Program-made: the position numbers and the translations under genes
Shown: piece by piece, positions 1 to 5,532 of the stretch
Layout of the letters: each line of letters starts with the position of its first letter
Position numbering within the stretch: position 1 is the first letter of the stretch
The notes under the pieces: generated by a model
The model's database searches: none
What the model was told of the DNA's origin: nothing
What the model saw: the letters and a program-made list of their open reading frames with translations, nothing else
Assembly: GCF_003319095.1 (NCBI RefSeq)
Contig: NZ_QOHI01000001.1
Span: 620,001-684,000, forward strand
Direction of reading: 5' to 3'
Source of the DNA: Blastococcus sp. TBT05-19
GTDB lineage: Bacteria; Actinomycetota; Actinomycetes; Mycobacteriales; Geodermatophilaceae
DNA: 64,000 bases

Positions 1-1016
1 ACCTCGCCGCCCGCGGTGCGGTCCTCAAGCGGCTGGACACCCTGGTCGGCGGCCTGCACTTCAGCCAGGCCCAGCTCGACGGGCAGTGGGACCAGACGCG
101 GGAGAACCTCGCGGTCCTGGTCGACGACGTCAACGCGGCGGCGGAGAACATCGCCACGCTGAACGTCGCGATCCGGCGCGCGACGCAGGCGAACCTGCCG
201 AGCAACGACCTGGCCGACCAGCGCGACGTGCTGATCATGAAGCTCGCCGGTCAGGTGGGCGCCACGGTCCGGCCGGGCGAGGACGGCGTCCTGAACGTGG
301 TCGTCGGCGGCCTCGGCCTCGTCACGGGGGGCACGGCGACCAAGCTGCGGCTCGCCGGCACCGATGACCCTGCCACCATCGACCCCAAGGCGGGGACCGG
401 CGATCTGGTCCGCCTGATGGCCGACCCCGGGGACTTCCAGGTGCGCGTCGCCGGGACGGCGGCGGGGCAGCTCAACTCCCTCAACGTGATCGTCCCGACC
501 CACCGCAAGGAGCTCGACGGCATCGCCTCCGACCTGGCGGCGAAGCTGAACGCCGCGCACGCGGACGGTTTCGACCTCGACGGCCTGGCCGGGGCACCCC
601 TGCTCGGCTCGTCGGGCGGTCCGCTGACCGCGTCCTCGCTCACGGTGCTGGTCACCGACCCCCGCGGGGTCGCCGCCTCGTCGCTGGAACTGCCGGCGGG
701 GAACCTCGGCAACGGCAACGCCGACCGCATCGCGCGCATCGGCAGCGAGGTGACGGGCGTCGACGCCCGGTACCGCGGGATGATCGTCGAGCTCGGCGTC
801 CAGTCGGCGGTGTCCCAGCGCAACCTCGACATCCAGAGCAGCATCACCACCACGGTGGACGCCGCACGCGACTCGGTCGCCGGCGTGAACCTCGACGAGG
901 AGCTCACCAACATGCTCTCGTACCAGCACGCCTACTCGGCCGCGGGTCGCATGATCACCGCGATCGACGAGGCGCTCGACGTGCTGATCAACCGCACCGG
1001 CCTGGTCGGGCGCTGA
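1..1016 (+). CDS. flgK: Flagellar hook-associated protein FlgK (3' part)
   Basis: Hook-filament junction protein (HAP1), exported through the flagellar type III apparatus and assembled between hook and filament. The frame is open from base 3, so the N-terminal part lies outside the window; about 337 residues are visible. The visible part includes a helix with NDLADQRDVL, typical of the FlgK inner helical domain, and ends in the family's C-terminal amphipathic helix (SYQHAYSAAGRMITAIDEAL). flgL starts five bases after the stop, so the two are surely co-transcribed. The order flgK-flgL-fliW-csrA is a standard late flagellar operon. Confidence 0.93.
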   Translation, partial: LAARGAVLKRLDTLVGGLHFSQAQLDGQWDQTRENLAVLVDDVNAAAENIATLNVAIRRATQANLPSNDLADQRDVLIMKLAGQVGATVRPGEDGVLNVVVGGLGLVTGGTATKLRLAGTDDPATIDPKAGTGDLVRLMADPGDFQVRVAGTAAGQLNSLNVIVPTHRKELDGIASDLAAKLNAAHADGFDLDGLAGAPLLGSSGGPLTASSLTVLVTDPRGVAASSLELPAGNLGNGNADRIARIGSEVTGVDARYRGMIVELGVQSAVSQRNLDIQSSITTTVDAARDSVAGVNLDEELTNMLSYQHAYSAAGRMITAIDEALDVLINRTGLVGR

Positions 1017-1021
1017 TCTCG

Positions 1022-1921
1022 ATGCGCATCACCCAACGGGCCGTCGCCCTCACCAGCCTGCAGGGCCTCAACCGCAACCTGGACGCCTTCGGCAAGCTGC
1101 AGCAGCAGCTCACCTCCGGTCGGCTGCTCAGCGCGCCGTCGGACTCGCCGACCGGCACCAACCGCGCCATGCAGACGCGTTCGGACCAGGAGGCGACCTC
1201 CCAGTTCGTCCGCAACATCGCCGACGGGAAGAGCTGGCTCGACCAGACCGACGCCACTCTCCAGCAGATGATGGACGTGACGCGGCGGGTCCGGGACCTG
1301 GCGGTGCAGGGCTCCAACACCGGAGCCATGTCCGACACCGCCGGCAAGGCCCTGGCCGCGGAGGTCTCCTCGCTGCGGGAGAGCCTGCTCGGGCTGGCCA
1401 ACACCACCGTGGCCGGACGCCCGCTGTTCGGTGGGATCACTGCGGGGGCGCAGGCCTACCACCCGGACACCGGGGCCTACCTCGGGACCACGGACACGCC
1501 GGTGGCCCGACGGGTGTCGACGACCGAGGAGGTCCGCATCGACATCAGCGGGGTCGAGGCGTTCGGCAGCCAGACCGCGGGTGCGGACCTGTTCGCCATC
1601 GTCGACGACATCGCCACCCACCTGGAGGGTGGTGGTGCCGGCCCCGACGCGCTGGCCGCGGATCTCGCCGCACTCGACGAGCGGATGAGCGCGATGATGT
1701 TCGCCGTCGCGGACGTCGGTGCCCGGTCCGCCCGCATGGAGCGCGAGGGCGACATCGCCCTCGACCAGGGGATCGTGCTCGAGACCCGGCTGGCCGAGGT
1801 CGAGAACATCGACCTGCCGAACACGATCATGCGGCTGCAGATGCAGCAGACGGGCTACGAGGCCGCGCTGGCCGCCACCGCCAAAGCGCTCTCGCCCACG
1901 CTCCTGGACTACCTGCGCTGA
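1022..1921 (+). CDS. flgL: Flagellar hook-associated protein FlgL
   Basis: HAP3, the second junction protein, which caps the junction and receives the first flagellin subunit. At 299 residues it has normal length. It is flagellin-like at both ends: the N-terminus (MRITQRAVALTSLQGLNRNL) and the QQQLTSGRLLSAPSDSPTGT stretch match the conserved D0/D1 helix, and the C-terminus carries ENIDLPNTIMRLQMQQTGYE followed by SPTLLDYLR. The ATG follows the flgK stop by five bases, and its stop shares one base with the fliW ATG (TGATG), so translation is coupled on both sides. Confidence 0.95.
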   Translation: MRITQRAVALTSLQGLNRNLDAFGKLQQQLTSGRLLSAPSDSPTGTNRAMQTRSDQEATSQFVRNIADGKSWLDQTDATLQQMMDVTRRVRDLAVQGSNTGAMSDTAGKALAAEVSSLRESLLGLANTTVAGRPLFGGITAGAQAYHPDTGAYLGTTDTPVARRVSTTEEVRIDISGVEAFGSQTAGADLFAIVDDIATHLEGGGAGPDALAADLAALDERMSAMMFAVADVGARSARMEREGDIALDQGIVLETRLAEVENIDLPNTIMRLQMQQTGYEAALAATAKALSPTLLDYLR

Positions 1922-2361
1922 TGACCACCCGACTCCTCGACCCGGCCCCGGCGCCGGCGACCGCACCGGCTCCGCCCCCGGTCCAGGTGCTGTCGTTCGC
2001 CGAGCCCGTGCCCGGTTTCCCCGCCCACCGGGACTACGTCCTGGTGCCGGCGGACCCGACCGGGCTGCTGTTCTGGCTGCAGTCGGTCGCCCCGGAGGGT
2101 CCGCGCTTCCTCGCCGTCCCGGCGAAGGAGTTCTTCCCCGACTACGCGCCGGTGATCCCGGCGGTGGTCCGGGCGGAACTGGGTCTGGCCGATCCGGCCG
2201 AGGCCCGCACCTTCTGCCTGGTCAGCGTTCCCGACGGGGACGTCTCCGAGGCCACGGCCAACCTCCGCGCGCCCGTCGTCGTCGCCCCCTCGACGCACCG
2301 GGCCCGGCAGGTGGTCCTGACCGATGGATCGCTTCCCCTTCGGCGGCGCCTCCGCCGATAA
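1921..2361 (+). CDS. fliW: Flagellar assembly factor FliW
   Basis: Small cytoplasmic protein that, in Bacillus and other bacteria, binds flagellin and also antagonises CsrA, linking flagellin translation to export. It is 146 residues long. The core motifs are visible: LSFAEPVPGFP at about 24-34, then LLFWLQSVAPEGPRFLAVP and the late strand FCLVSVPDG, followed by NLRAPVVVAP. The first 20 residues are a Pro/Ala-rich extension. It overlaps flgL by one base and is followed about 90 bases later by csrA, its usual partner. No flagellin gene lies in this window. Confidence 0.93.
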   Translation: MTTRLLDPAPAPATAPAPPPVQVLSFAEPVPGFPAHRDYVLVPADPTGLLFWLQSVAPEGPRFLAVPAKEFFPDYAPVIPAVVRAELGLADPAEARTFCLVSVPDGDVSEATANLRAPVVVAPSTHRARQVVLTDGSLPLRRRLRR

Positions 2362-2451: not shown

Positions 2452-2763
2452 GTGCTCACACTCACCCGCAGCGTCGGCGAGACCATCCGCATCGGTGACG
2501 ACATCGAGGTCCACGTCGTCGAGGTCCGCGGCGGCACCGTGCGTCTGGGCTTCAAGGCCCCGCGCGAGATCGCGATCCACCGCGAGGAGGTCTACAAGCA
2601 GATCGCCGAGGCGAACCTGCTCGCGGCCCAGGTCACCGCCGACACCCTCGGCGCGCTGGCGGCGTTCGCGCCCACGGCTGCCGAGGCGACCGGCGCGGCC
2701 CCTGGCGAGCCGGCGGAGGCCGCCGTCGACACCGCGGGTCGCGCGGCACCCGCCGTGGACTGA
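2452..2763 (+). CDS. csrA: Translational regulator CsrA with C-terminal extension
   Basis: RNA-binding protein that blocks ribosome binding on GGA-containing hairpins; in flagellar operons it represses flagellin translation until FliW sequesters it. Residues 1-60 are the canonical CsrA fold: MLTLTRSVGETIRIGDDIEV, then VRLGFKAPREIAIHREEVY. Start is GTG with GGAGGGG six bases upstream. The family is usually about 60-75 residues; here roughly 40 extra residues rich in Ala, Thr and Pro follow the dimer core. The 91-base spacer from fliW and the strong ribosome site suggest independent translation in the same transcript. Confidence 0.94.
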   Translation: MLTLTRSVGETIRIGDDIEVHVVEVRGGTVRLGFKAPREIAIHREEVYKQIAEANLLAAQVTADTLGALAAFAPTAAEATGAAPGEPAEAAVDTAGRAAPAVD

Positions 2764-2834: not shown

Positions 2835-2964
2835 GCCTGCGACACGGGCAACTATTGCCGAAGCTTCGGCCTGACAACTGCGTTGGACACAGCGAGTTGT
2901 GTGCCGTGTTCGGACAGCGCATGCGGCAGATTCCTCCCTACGCAAGTGACAGGGGGCGAACAAC

Positions 2965-3471
2965 ATGGCACGCAACGCATTCACTACTCCGATGACCGGT
3001 GACCAGGCCGGTGAGCAGGAGTCCGTGGTGGTCCACGTGCAGCTGCGACCGCGGCGCGGCGCGACCCGCAAGTGCCTCGCGGCGCTCGCGGCTCTGGCTG
3101 CCGAGCACGAGGACGTCGTCGTCACCGTCACCGGCCTGAGCAAGGACGACCGCGTCGCCCGGGTGACCGTCGGCATCGACCTCGGCCCGCGCACCGCCAT
3201 CGCGAAGTTCTCGCCCCAGGCGCAGGCGGCCTACGCCTTCGTCTCGGCCATGTTCACCTCGCTGTACGACCACATGCCGGTCTACACCGCCGAGCCCAGC
3301 GTCGCCGAGCGCGCCGCAGCCACCGCGCTGTTCGACCGCATCGCCGACGGCTCCGCCCGTGTCGACGACCTCGTCGCCGACCTCGGTGACTCCCGGCCCG
3401 CCACCTCGGCGCCCGCGTCGCCGATCCCCACGCCCCGGCTCCCCGGTCCCGGCGAGCGCATCTCGGCCTGA
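2965..3471 (+). CDS. Unknown protein, 168 aa, between csrA and a sigma-like gene
   Basis: I do not recognise this family. Residues about 22-80 alternate strands and helices (VVVHVQLRPRR, a helix, DVVVTVTGL, VARVTVGIDLGPRTAIAKF), suggesting a compact alpha/beta domain. A helical part (PQAQAAYAFVSAMFTSLYDH) and a Pro/Ser-rich tail after about 135 follow. No membrane segment or signal peptide is seen. The ATG has AGGGGG upstream. About 200 bases separate it from csrA, with possible FliA-type -10 boxes there. The sigma-like gene begins 73 bases downstream on the same strand, so the two may form a pair; an anti-sigma or partner role is only a guess. Confidence 0.75.
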   Translation: MARNAFTTPMTGDQAGEQESVVVHVQLRPRRGATRKCLAALAALAAEHEDVVVTVTGLSKDDRVARVTVGIDLGPRTAIAKFSPQAQAAYAFVSAMFTSLYDHMPVYTAEPSVAERAAATALFDRIADGSARVDDLVADLGDSRPATSAPASPIPTPRLPGPGERISA

Positions 3472-3543
3472 CGGCCTCCTCCGCAGTACGGGTCCCCGGC
3501 CCACCGGTGACCCCTTCTTCCCCGTAGTGCCCAGGAGATCCCC

Positions 3544-4638
3544 ATGCCCGACCGCATGTCGAACCCGACGACCGCCGACAACCGCGCCGCCCGCCAGCCC
3601 CTGGTGTTCGGCGGCATCCCCGAGGCCGAGGGCTGGGCGCTGGCGCCCATCACCCCGCGCGACCGGGTGCACTTCCGCGCCGACCAGGAGCTCCCGCTCG
3701 ACGAGTTCCGCAGCGAGCTCCCCGACGGCGTCAGCGTCAGCTACGACCAGGGCGACGGCCTCTACCGGGTCGACGGCGCCTGCGGCACGGCCGCCGTGCT
3801 GGCCGACTGGGTCAAGGCCTGGTGCGCCGGGGCCGGTGTGACCACGATCGGCCTGCGCGCCGAGACCGACGTCCGCCGGCGCGCGCCGCGGGACCTGCCG
3901 CCGGCGTTCCTCGCCGACCTGTGCCGGCACTACGGGCCGGTCAGCCTCAAGCGGCTGCAGCGGAACATGAGCACCATCCGGCTGCACCTGCCCGACCCGG
4001 ACGACCTGGGCCAGCAGGTGTACGAGTGGGTGCTCAAGGCCGTCGCGCAGTACGACGAGACGAAGTCGGTCCCGTTCGGCGCGTTCCTGGCCACCCAGCT
4101 CTCCAAGTGGGTGCACGACCTGGGCCGCAACGCCCACGGCCGCACCGCCGCCGACACCGAGCACAAGCAGCAGAAGGCGATCGCCGCCTTCATGGCCGAG
4201 CACCAGCGCCGGCCGTCGGAGAAGGAGCTGGCCGCGTACATGGGCCAGAGCGTCGCCACCCTGCGCCGCAACTCCCAGACCGTCGCGACCTTGAACGGCC
4301 TGCGCAACCTGCAGTCCCTGGACGGCGCGCCGGACGCGACCGAGATCCTGCTGCCGGACTCCTGCGAGGCGCCCGACGAGATCATGGGAGAGGCCGAGCA
4401 GACCCTGCTGTCGCACGCCCTCACCGCCGCCTGCGCCCCCGACCCGGGTGCGCGGCGCGACCAGCGCGCTGGTCAGCCCAACGTCCTGGGCTGGGCGACC
4501 TGGTACCTGACGACGTGGGGCGGCCAGACCAAGACCCAGCTCTCGGCGGACCTCAACACCTCGGTGCGGAACATGAACGTCTACGCCGACCGGGTGGAGA
4601 AGGCCCTCAAGGACCGCCTCGCCGAACTCGCCGACTGA
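3544..4638 (+). CDS. Divergent sigma-70-like protein, 364 aa
   Basis: Probably a DNA-binding transcription initiation factor of the FliA/WhiG style. Residues 1-115 match nothing I know. About 120-195 looks like sigma region 2: LCRHYGPVSLKRLQR, then DPDDLGQQVYEWVLKAVAQY and FGAFLATQLSKWVHDLGR, the places of DDL-x-Q-x-G-x2-GLL-x-AV and F-x-TYA-x2-RI-x3-I-D-x-LR. About 212-260 resembles region 3 (FMAEHQRRPSEKELAAYMG, then LQSLD). About 325-360 resembles the region 4 helix-turn-helix (TKTQLSADLNTSVRNMNVYA, RVEKALKDRL). AGGAG stands before the ATG. Similarity is by eye and remote; it could be a sigma-derived regulator instead. It is the last gene of the flagellar block. Confidence 0.7.
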   Translation: MPDRMSNPTTADNRAARQPLVFGGIPEAEGWALAPITPRDRVHFRADQELPLDEFRSELPDGVSVSYDQGDGLYRVDGACGTAAVLADWVKAWCAGAGVTTIGLRAETDVRRRAPRDLPPAFLADLCRHYGPVSLKRLQRNMSTIRLHLPDPDDLGQQVYEWVLKAVAQYDETKSVPFGAFLATQLSKWVHDLGRNAHGRTAADTEHKQQKAIAAFMAEHQRRPSEKELAAYMGQSVATLRRNSQTVATLNGLRNLQSLDGAPDATEILLPDSCEAPDEIMGEAEQTLLSHALTAACAPDPGARRDQRAGQPNVLGWATWYLTTWGGQTKTQLSADLNTSVRNMNVYADRVEKALKDRLAELAD

Positions 4639-4645
4639 CCTCCCT

Positions 4646-4669
4646 GGGCCAAAATGGCCATTTTGGCCC
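4646..4669. repeat. 24-nt perfect palindrome, copy 1 (likely bidirectional terminator)
   Basis: Perfect palindrome with half-site GGGCCAAAATGG. It lies eight bases after the sigma-like gene's stop and touches the stop codon of the convergent DUF559-type gene, so it is placed as a terminator for both. A second copy with one mismatch lies at 5588-5611. Confidence 0.75.
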
Positions 4670-5532
4670 TAGGGGGTGCGGGCGAGCTCCGAACGGATCC
4701 GCTGCACCACGCCGGCCACATCCCGCAGATCCGCCGCGCTGAGCCGGATGACGCGCCAGCCGGCGGCGACCAGGCGAGCAATGCGTTCGTCGTCCCGGAC
4801 GATCTGCGTCTCCGCGAAGTGGTAGGCGCCCTCGTACTCGATGGCCAGCCGTGCTCCAGGGAAGGCGAGGTCGACGCGGCCGAGCAGCGCGCCGTCCGCG
4901 AGCACCTCGAACTGCGGGACCGGGGACAAGCCGGCGAGCACGCAAGCGACCCGCACGCGGGACTCCGGTGCCGACTCCGCTCGTGGATCGATCAGCGGGA
5001 CGGCGCGGCGGACCCTGGTGACCCCCCAGCGGCCGAAGCCGGCCTCCGTCAGCCGCCGGAGTGCCCCCAGGTCGAGACTTCCCGCTCGCGCCATCGCATC
5101 GAGCGCAGCCACCGCGGTGCCCACCGGTTCCAGCGCGGCGACGTCCCACGCCGTCCGCAGGGCCGACGTCACAGGGACGCCGTCTCGGTCCTCGACCTCC
5201 GCGGGGCTCAGCGGTGTCCGGTGCACCTTCGTCCCCCGTGGCCCCTTCCACTCCACGTCGGGCGGTCGCAGCACCGTGACCGGGTCGTTGGGTGCGGCGA
5301 AGGCTGCGCCGTGCCATGCGGCTGCCGAGTGACCGCCGATCGCCGTCCCCTCGGGAAGCAGGAGGGCGACCCCACGACACCGCAGCCGGTGGTCGAACGG
5401 CGATCCCGGATCGGCGTAGACGCCTTGGACGACGCGGCGGAACCCGCGTTCCCGCAGCTGCTTGCGCGTGATCACGCCTTCGGAGATGGCGTGGCTACCG
5501 ATGAAGACGCCGGTCAGATCGCGGATGGGCAC
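4669..5532 (-). CDS. DUF559-type protein with N-terminal winged-helix-like region
   Basis: 287-residue protein of a type common in actinomycetes. The N-terminal part (ISEGVITRKQLRERGFRRVV, then GVYADPGSP) resembles AbiEi-like winged-helix regions. The C-terminal 100 residues resemble the Vsr/DUF559 fold of PD-(D/E)XK nucleases: PESRVRVACVLAGL, GRVDLAFPGARLAIEYEGAY (Asp and Glu of the putative site) and RDDERIARLVAAGWRVIRL. Start is taken as GTG. It stands alone between two matching palindromes and is convergent with the sigma-like gene. Whether these proteins cut DNA or act in toxin-antitoxin systems is unknown to me. Confidence 0.8.
   Translation of the reverse strand: MPIRDLTGVFIGSHAISEGVITRKQLRERGFRRVVQGVYADPGSPFDHRLRCRGVALLLPEGTAIGGHSAAAWHGAAFAAPNDPVTVLRPPDVEWKGPRGTKVHRTPLSPAEVEDRDGVPVTSALRTAWDVAALEPVGTAVAALDAMARAGSLDLGALRRLTEAGFGRWGVTRVRRAVPLIDPRAESAPESRVRVACVLAGLSPVPQFEVLADGALLGRVDLAFPGARLAIEYEGAYHFAETQIVRDDERIARLVAAGWRVIRLSAADLRDVAGVVQRIRSELARTP

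Follow-up and report, generated by a model that had tools for sequence, protein, structure and literature searches.

A sigma-derived protein and its conserved small partner beside flagellar and type IV pilus genes suggest an undescribed regulator of surface filaments in actinobacteria

Introduction

Behind csrA in a flagellar gene cluster of Blastococcus sp. TBT05-19 (Geodermatophilaceae) lie a gene for a small protein, orf168, and a gene for a 364-residue protein that resembles sigma-70 factors. Is the larger protein a flagellar sigma factor, a regulator derived from one or an unrelated protein, and does the small protein work with it? The window examined here is a stretch of 64,000 nucleotides (positions 620,001 to 684,000 of contig NZ_QOHI01000001.1), and positions below count from its first letter unless contig coordinates are given.

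In other actinobacteria, flagella and type IV pili are driven by FliA/WhiG-type sigma factors; according to the passages of PMC8325347 used here, Rubrobacter uses a WhiG-type sigma for its type IV pili and Actinoplanes uses one for pili as well as flagella, and WhiG with RsiG is used for sporulation in Streptomyces. For Geodermatophilaceae, the same passages record RsiG in 16 of 16 species; the known WhiG–RsiG switch and the pair described here therefore coexist in the family. Judged on titles and abstracts, and among the matches listed, the open-access literature does not describe the pair, and the portion of a Modestobacter genome report considered here (PMC8602919) names csrA and fliA with no mention of it.

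Gene Organization and Conservation in Geodermatophilaceae

The cluster runs on the plus strand in the order flgK, flgL, fliW, csrA, orf168 and the 364-residue gene. Pfam matches identify flgK (3..1016, cut by the window edge, with a frame that stays open across it), flgL (1022..1921, which also matches the flagellin N profile), fliW (1921..2361) and csrA (2452..2763). The putative partner gene orf168 (2965..3471, 168 residues), taken from the list of open reading frames and followed by profile searches, is separated by 72 bases from the gene of the sigma-like protein (3544..4638, 364 residues), which is delimited by its open reading frame, a family alignment and profiles. An initial annotation of this DNA had taken both frames as genuine genes placed directly behind csrA, and comparison with 42 relatives (loci L031–L072) bears this out and takes the pairing far beyond chance: orf168 and csrA lie upstream of the 364-residue gene in 41 of them, and in the sole miss (L059) the contig begins 74 bp ahead of that gene.

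Identity of the 364-residue protein to the window copy ranges from 75.7 to 95.1% across the 42 loci, with a median of 90.8%. The corresponding medians, all computed from best BLAST segments in 37 to 42 loci per gene, are 94.0% for CsrA, 70.6% for orf168, 66.9% for FliW, 63.2% for FlgL and 59.8% for FlgK (39 loci). The sigma-like protein is thus among the slowest-evolving proteins of the cluster.

A genome-wide search found one copy of the protein in the window's genome (3.92 Mb). Among 112 Geodermatophilaceae genomes, 102 encode it at E 1e-20 or better, and 37 of 39 named records encoding a close relative are from Blastococcus or Geodermatophilus. Flagellin_N, a profile that also matches FlgL, has matches in 100 of the same 112 genomes. 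The two agree in 108 genomes (99 with both, nine with neither), and the four discordant ones comprise three drafts of 72–84% completeness that have the sigma-like protein and no flagellin (G411, G425 and G432) and one assembly of 610 contigs with flagellin and no sigma-like protein (G420). The 364-residue protein tracks flagella in Geodermatophilaceae, in keeping with the flagellar link that the initial annotation read from its position.

The next long open reading frame on the right that we took as a gene (4669–5532, minus strand) is convergent to the 364-residue gene and encodes a 287-residue protein, presumably of the AbiEi/DUF559 kind by its look. Matches to it at E 1e-5 were found in 10 of the 42 loci of relatives, in one orientation or the other and in some at low identity. 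A perfect inverted repeat, GGGCCAAAATGG CCATTTTGGCCC, spans 4646–4669 between the two genes and is possibly a two-way terminator.

Sigma-Derived and N-Terminal Parts of the Protein

Within the 364-residue protein, profiles point to a region 2-like part (residues 115–206; 3886..4161, plus strand) and a part like regions 3 and 3.2 (residues 207–285; 4162..4398, plus strand), with borders that we set, and alignment to distant homologues that match region 4 assigns a region 4-like part with a putative helix-turn-helix (residues 286–364; 4399..4635, plus strand). All matches to regions 2, 3 and 4 are weak and lie under the gathering scores. As a single sequence, the window protein matches Pfam Sigma70_r2 at E 0.05 and Sigma70_r3 at E 0.058 and nothing in the PDB, and it is not among the 17 Sigma70_r2 matches that its own genome yields at E 0.01. 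Across the 19 aligned members, region 2 is matched in 17 and region 3 in all, with best E values of 0.0029 and 0.0022, respectively. For region 4, Pfam gives nothing in the window protein and one match among the 19 members (E 0.18); in distant homologues, which are 23–27% identical, Sigma70_r4_2 is matched in all three tested (E 0.0017–0.0058), region 3 in two and region 2 in none. Regions 2, 3 and 4 in order, as read from the single sequence at the outset, are thereby recovered through weak profile matches when the Geodermatophilaceae proteins (regions 2 and 3) and the homologues of another family, f49 (region 4), are taken together.

The best-matching family is that of the FliA/WhiG sigmas, with which the protein would share regions 2, 3 and 4 in order and a link to flagella or type IV pili. 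The NCBIfam FliA_WhiG model (TIGR02479) matches all 19 members of alignment A1 and 9 of 11 in the wider set A6; on the window protein it covers residues 146–251 at E 1.1e-6, and the best member reaches 2.1e-8. The window protein scores 28.6 bits and so does not reach the curated cut-off of 189.6, and the genome's own FliA, when cut at a later start, also falls under it (153.1 bits). Searched against the PDB, the family profile has its best match in 6pfj, labelled RNA polymerase sigma factor (E 0.0052), which we take to be Streptomyces WhiG. The profile–profile comparison suggested in the initial annotation agrees: hhalign places the sigma part against a FliA/WhiG set with a probability of 97.4 over 138 columns, and of 98.5 over 222 collinear columns after the distant homologues were added, for sets picked after the matches were known and with E-values that have no background database. 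On these profile grounds, residues 115–364 are sigma-70-derived.

Unlike the FliA and WhiG proteins, the new protein lies far under the family cut-off, forms a separate long branch, has an extra N-terminal domain and has a constant partner in orf168, and it coexists with both FliA and a WhiG-type sigma. In a tree of sigma domains, it and the f49 homologues stand apart from FliA, WhiG and those of the genome's other sigmas that were used; the new proteins sit on long branches of their own, which join at a weak support of 80/70 and which the program flags as unsure, and a specific origin in FliA or WhiG is therefore not established. Conservation within the protein is strongest in region 2.2–2.4, where 32 of 56 positions are invariant among 14 sequences; this conservation in Geodermatophilaceae fits retained contacts with core polymerase or DNA. 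By eye, the residues of FliA that we assume to matter for promoter recognition are not recognizably kept in the 364-residue protein, and the DLxQ-type region 2.2 seen in the window protein is missing from the f49 members.

The N-terminal 115 residues had been called unrelated, a description that no longer holds. A whole-protein search matched residues 27–109 and 39–108 in two genomes of other families, in both cases at the C terminus of a protein in which ABC transporter ATPase motifs can be recognized by eye. A profile built from 14 sequences of the N-terminal domain and run over 394 genomes of the class matches 57 of them at E 0.01, the own genome included; the 14 loci inspected are six full sigma-like homologues and eight ABC ATPase tails, with E values down to 8.1e-8 per genome. 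hhalign aligns the domain with 19 ABC ATPase tails, which had been chosen because they matched it, at a probability of 98.4 over 67 columns and 37% identity. Pfam DrrA1-3_C (PF13732), searched at E up to 10 with a program whose filters drop many weak matches, is not listed for the 19 whole members or for nine fragments. By profile likeness, residues 38–112 (3655..3879, plus strand) are related to the C-terminal domain of DrrA-type ABC ATPases, from which the new protein differs in having no ATPase domain and no PF13732 match and in being fused to a sigma-like protein. If this reading is right, it is to our knowledge the first ABC-ATPase accessory domain on a sigma protein. A motif seemingly common to the N-termini of FliA (PLKF.G) and of the new protein (PLVFGG) was set aside: in relatives, the conserved FliA frame seems, by eye, to start further down.

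Occurrence Beside Type IV Pilus Genes

A second genomic setting came from G425, a 74%-complete draft of another Geodermatophilaceae genus, in which a sigma-like protein 58% identical to the window copy is encoded (locus L126) beside pilin-type genes (N_methyl) and a divergent WhiG-type sigma. An orf168 homologue lies directly upstream (52% identical, profile E 1e-36). PilT was found in this genome and flagellin was not, the latter being weak evidence because of the incompleteness of the draft.

The full pair is also present in six genomes of f49, a different family of the same class (G681, G667, G588, G597, G605 and G495). Their sigma-like homologues contain both domains, N-terminal and sigma (E 7e-15 to 2e-23), and in all six the gene immediately upstream encodes an orf168 homologue (E 1.5e-8 to 6e-14), so that the partner gene first noted in the window recurs in the relatives' loci, in L126 and in f49. 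The N-domain matches in f49 come from eight genomes, six with the pair and two (G579 and G643) with the ABC ATPase tail only. A pilin gene lies directly upstream of the pair in five of the six loci, and in the sixth the contig ends there. Pfam names a PilB-type ATPase, a PilC-type protein, a pilin and a prepilin peptidase around the pair in L165; in the other f49 loci the pilus genes were recognized by likeness. The two genes are 1–6 bases apart in f49, or overlap by 4 bases (L166), with starts that we chose, an arrangement that fits translational coupling. After the sigma-like gene, L165 (7515–8231) and L167 (9699–10418) encode a protein of about 238 residues, and the one copy tested has no Pfam match.

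Linkage of the pair to type IV pili is not universal. Only 2 of 108 Geodermatophilaceae gave a PilT match, and in one of these, a flagellate genome with a type IV pilus cluster (L225; G080:C10:411000-430900), the pair is absent from the 20 kb around pilT.

In a sample of the order, 76 of 397 genomes match, 75 of them inside the window's family; the remaining match (G351) is a FliA-type sigma beside flagellin. In a sample of the phylum, profile A3 matches 3 and profile A6 matches 32 of 396 genomes, the own genome included in both, in searches that scored 4–5 candidates per genome and may have missed some. The phylum matches outside the own genome span the sigma part only, and the two loci inspected (L162 and L163) look like ordinary FliA/WhiG-type sigmas. 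An origin in a phage or plasmid was also considered and rejected: the protein has no match in plasmids or phages at E 1e-3, and a PHROGs search gave only weak unknowns.

The Partner Gene and its Upstream Region

The conserved core of orf168 covers approximately residues 22–112. A family search with 20 members gave nothing near the cut-off in Pfam (best E 0.058), and orf168 has no match in the PDB. FlgM is not listed for the 20 members at E up to 10, and the RsiG motif E(X)3S(X)2R(X)3Q(X)3D is present in none of 71 homologues (48 distinct) and in none of a further 11; if orf168 is an anti-sigma factor, it is thus of another type. The RsiG–(c-di-GMP)–WhiG switch, as outlined in the passages of PMC8325347 used here, is alike in joining a sigma of the flagellar clade to a small protein partner; it differs in that the orf168 homologues have no RsiG motif and the sigma-like protein has an extra domain. 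Kinship of orf168 with the N-terminal domain, the ABC domain or FliA was rejected at hhalign probabilities of 0.1–0.3.

The gap between csrA and orf168 contains strongly conserved blocks in an alignment of 24 sequences. Block A (2840..2863, plus strand) reads CGACAC.GGCAAC...TGCCGAA in most sequences and ends in a FliA-like −10 box with no CTCAAG −35 element, and block B (2886..2905, plus strand) shares GACAC.G...TGCC with it. The same alignment shows a conserved orf168 leader with a purine-rich ribosome-binding site (2944..2956, plus strand). Blocks A and B could be the promoter or operator of the pair, block A being the candidate promoter, and regulation through them would perhaps be autoregulatory. 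Within the 103 kb around the cluster, the tight forms of A and B occur once each, both ahead of orf168, and a looser form joining the two is present seven times; no regulon was found through the blocks in this stretch.

Proposed Role and Alternative Explanations

The homology of the protein, the co-inheritance of the pair and its linkage to two kinds of filament cluster are established, and they suggest an undescribed regulator of surface filaments. The reading that we prefer, at a probability of about 0.5, is that the 364-residue protein is an appendage-linked, sigma-derived transcription regulator that has orf168 as its partner and acts as an extra sigma beside FliA and WhiG. The protein would bind promoter DNA, probably together with RNA polymerase through the core enzyme, and its targets may be a few genes of the adjoining filament, flagellar in Geodermatophilaceae and of the type IV pilus in f49. 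orf168 may contact the protein and hold or tune it as an anti-sigma factor or sensor; the likely site of this contact, or of ligand binding, would be the N-terminal domain, and blocks A and B may serve autoregulation. The WhiG-type sigmas of Rubrobacter and Actinoplanes lend support by analogy. Counting against this reading are the scores far under cut-off, the promoter-recognition residues of FliA that are not recognizably kept, the diverged region 2.2 in f49, the separate long tree branches, the presence of FliA and a WhiG-type sigma, the lack of a regulon in the stretch searched, the discordant genomes, the G080 pilT region that does not have the pair and the two f49 genomes with an ABC ATPase tail only. 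More tentatively, the pair might be a self-contained actinobacterial module, composed of a sigma factor fused to a domain shared with ABC ATPases and a dedicated small partner. Such a module would control surface filaments as a third appendage sigma next to FliA and WhiG, and evolution would have shifted it between flagella and type IV pili.

If the preferred reading is right, flagellate Geodermatophilaceae have a third motility-tied sigma-derived protein beside FliA and WhiG, and one actinobacterial regulatory unit serves two unrelated filament machines. The ABC-ATPase domain on a sigma protein would be a testable handle on sigma control. The finding would also extend the theme, drawn from the part of PMC8325347 used here, of WhiG-type sigmas re-used between sporulation, pili and flagella.

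The most serious alternative, which we rate as rather unlikely, is that the protein is a sigma-derived DNA-binding regulator that is no longer a sigma factor and acts as an activator, repressor or decoy on DNA or on FliA. The diverged region 2.2 of the f49 members, the scores far under sigma cut-offs, the long tree branch and the fact that FliA is already there all fit such a role; the order of regions 2, 3 and 4, still kept across the set, and the strong conservation of region 2.2–2.4 in Geodermatophilaceae, with the retained core or DNA contacts that it would fit, speak against it.

The pair might also belong to the FliW–CsrA post-transcriptional switch of flagellin and act on CsrA, FliW or their RNA targets, as its position immediately after csrA in 41 of 42 loci could suggest. 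Profiles of csrA and fliW, however, found nothing in the stretches searched of seven pilus loci (L126 and the six of f49; best E 0.42), and the flagellar controls L075 and L125 were positive for both (E 4e-23 and 1e-22 for csrA; E 2e-29 and 2e-34 for fliW). The lineages therefore have the pair and a filament cluster in common and do not share csrA: the unit is the pair, and csrA is not part of it. The orf168 leader, moreover, has no RNA fold beyond that of shuffled sequences (z 0.22). We accordingly regard membership in the switch as improbable; of its proximity to FliW–CsrA, stressed in the initial annotation, the adjacency in Geodermatophilaceae stands, and the switch is a neighbor of the pair and not a defining part.

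A helical protein that is not sigma-related and resembles sigma regions by chance would account for the weak single-sequence matches (Pfam E 0.05 and no PDB match), yet FliA_WhiG is reproducible in 19 of 19 members and regions 3 and 4 are matched again in homologues 23–27% identical, which makes coincidence very improbable.

Canonical Sigma Factors and the Flagellin Region

A FliA-type sigma, which matches NCBIfam FliA_WhiG at E 9.3e-45, is encoded on the minus strand at G000:C7:617893-619020, outside the window and 981 bp to the left of its first position. Its gene lies between the flagellin side and flgN/flgK, and the flagellin gene was identified by profile; the other genes left of the window are presumably fliD-like, glycosyltransferase-like and flgN-like, as named from the look of their sequences. 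Elsewhere the genome has a WhiG-type sigma of 266 residues (L091), named by eye from its likeness. The search for a canonical fliA or whiG, advised in the initial annotation, thus yielded both types, and the 364-residue protein does not fill the place of an otherwise missing flagellar sigma; what stands of that interpretation is the sigma-derived C-terminal two thirds, the conserved partner gene and the link to flagella.

Upstream of fliC, CTCAAG is present in 19 of 20 genomes (GTCAAG in the other), followed exactly 15 bases later by GCCG in 19 of 20 (TCCG in the other), and a promoter-like site of this CTCAAG-N15-GCCG type also lies ahead of fliA. Despite the flagellar linkage and the FliA/WhiG-like profile matches, it is hardly credible that the 364-residue protein is the canonical but divergent flagellar sigma of the lineage, given the FliA beside flagellin, these sites ahead of fliC and fliA, and the retention of the protein in one flagellin-less draft beside pilin genes.

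Two minor observations concern the same region. The glycosyltransferase-like gene (G000:C7:616808-617881) sits between flagellin and fliA and is perhaps for flagellin glycosylation. The 5′ leader of flagellin (L205–L224; own copy at G000:C7 ~616700) contains, by eye, a conserved element CCCGC-AGCACGGATGCA-GCGGG with GGA in its loop, whose stem letters are altered on both sides in L219 and L223, and a second GGA in the ribosome-binding site AAGGAGGA; measured against the CsrA motif as we assume it to be, the leader looks like a two-site CsrA target.
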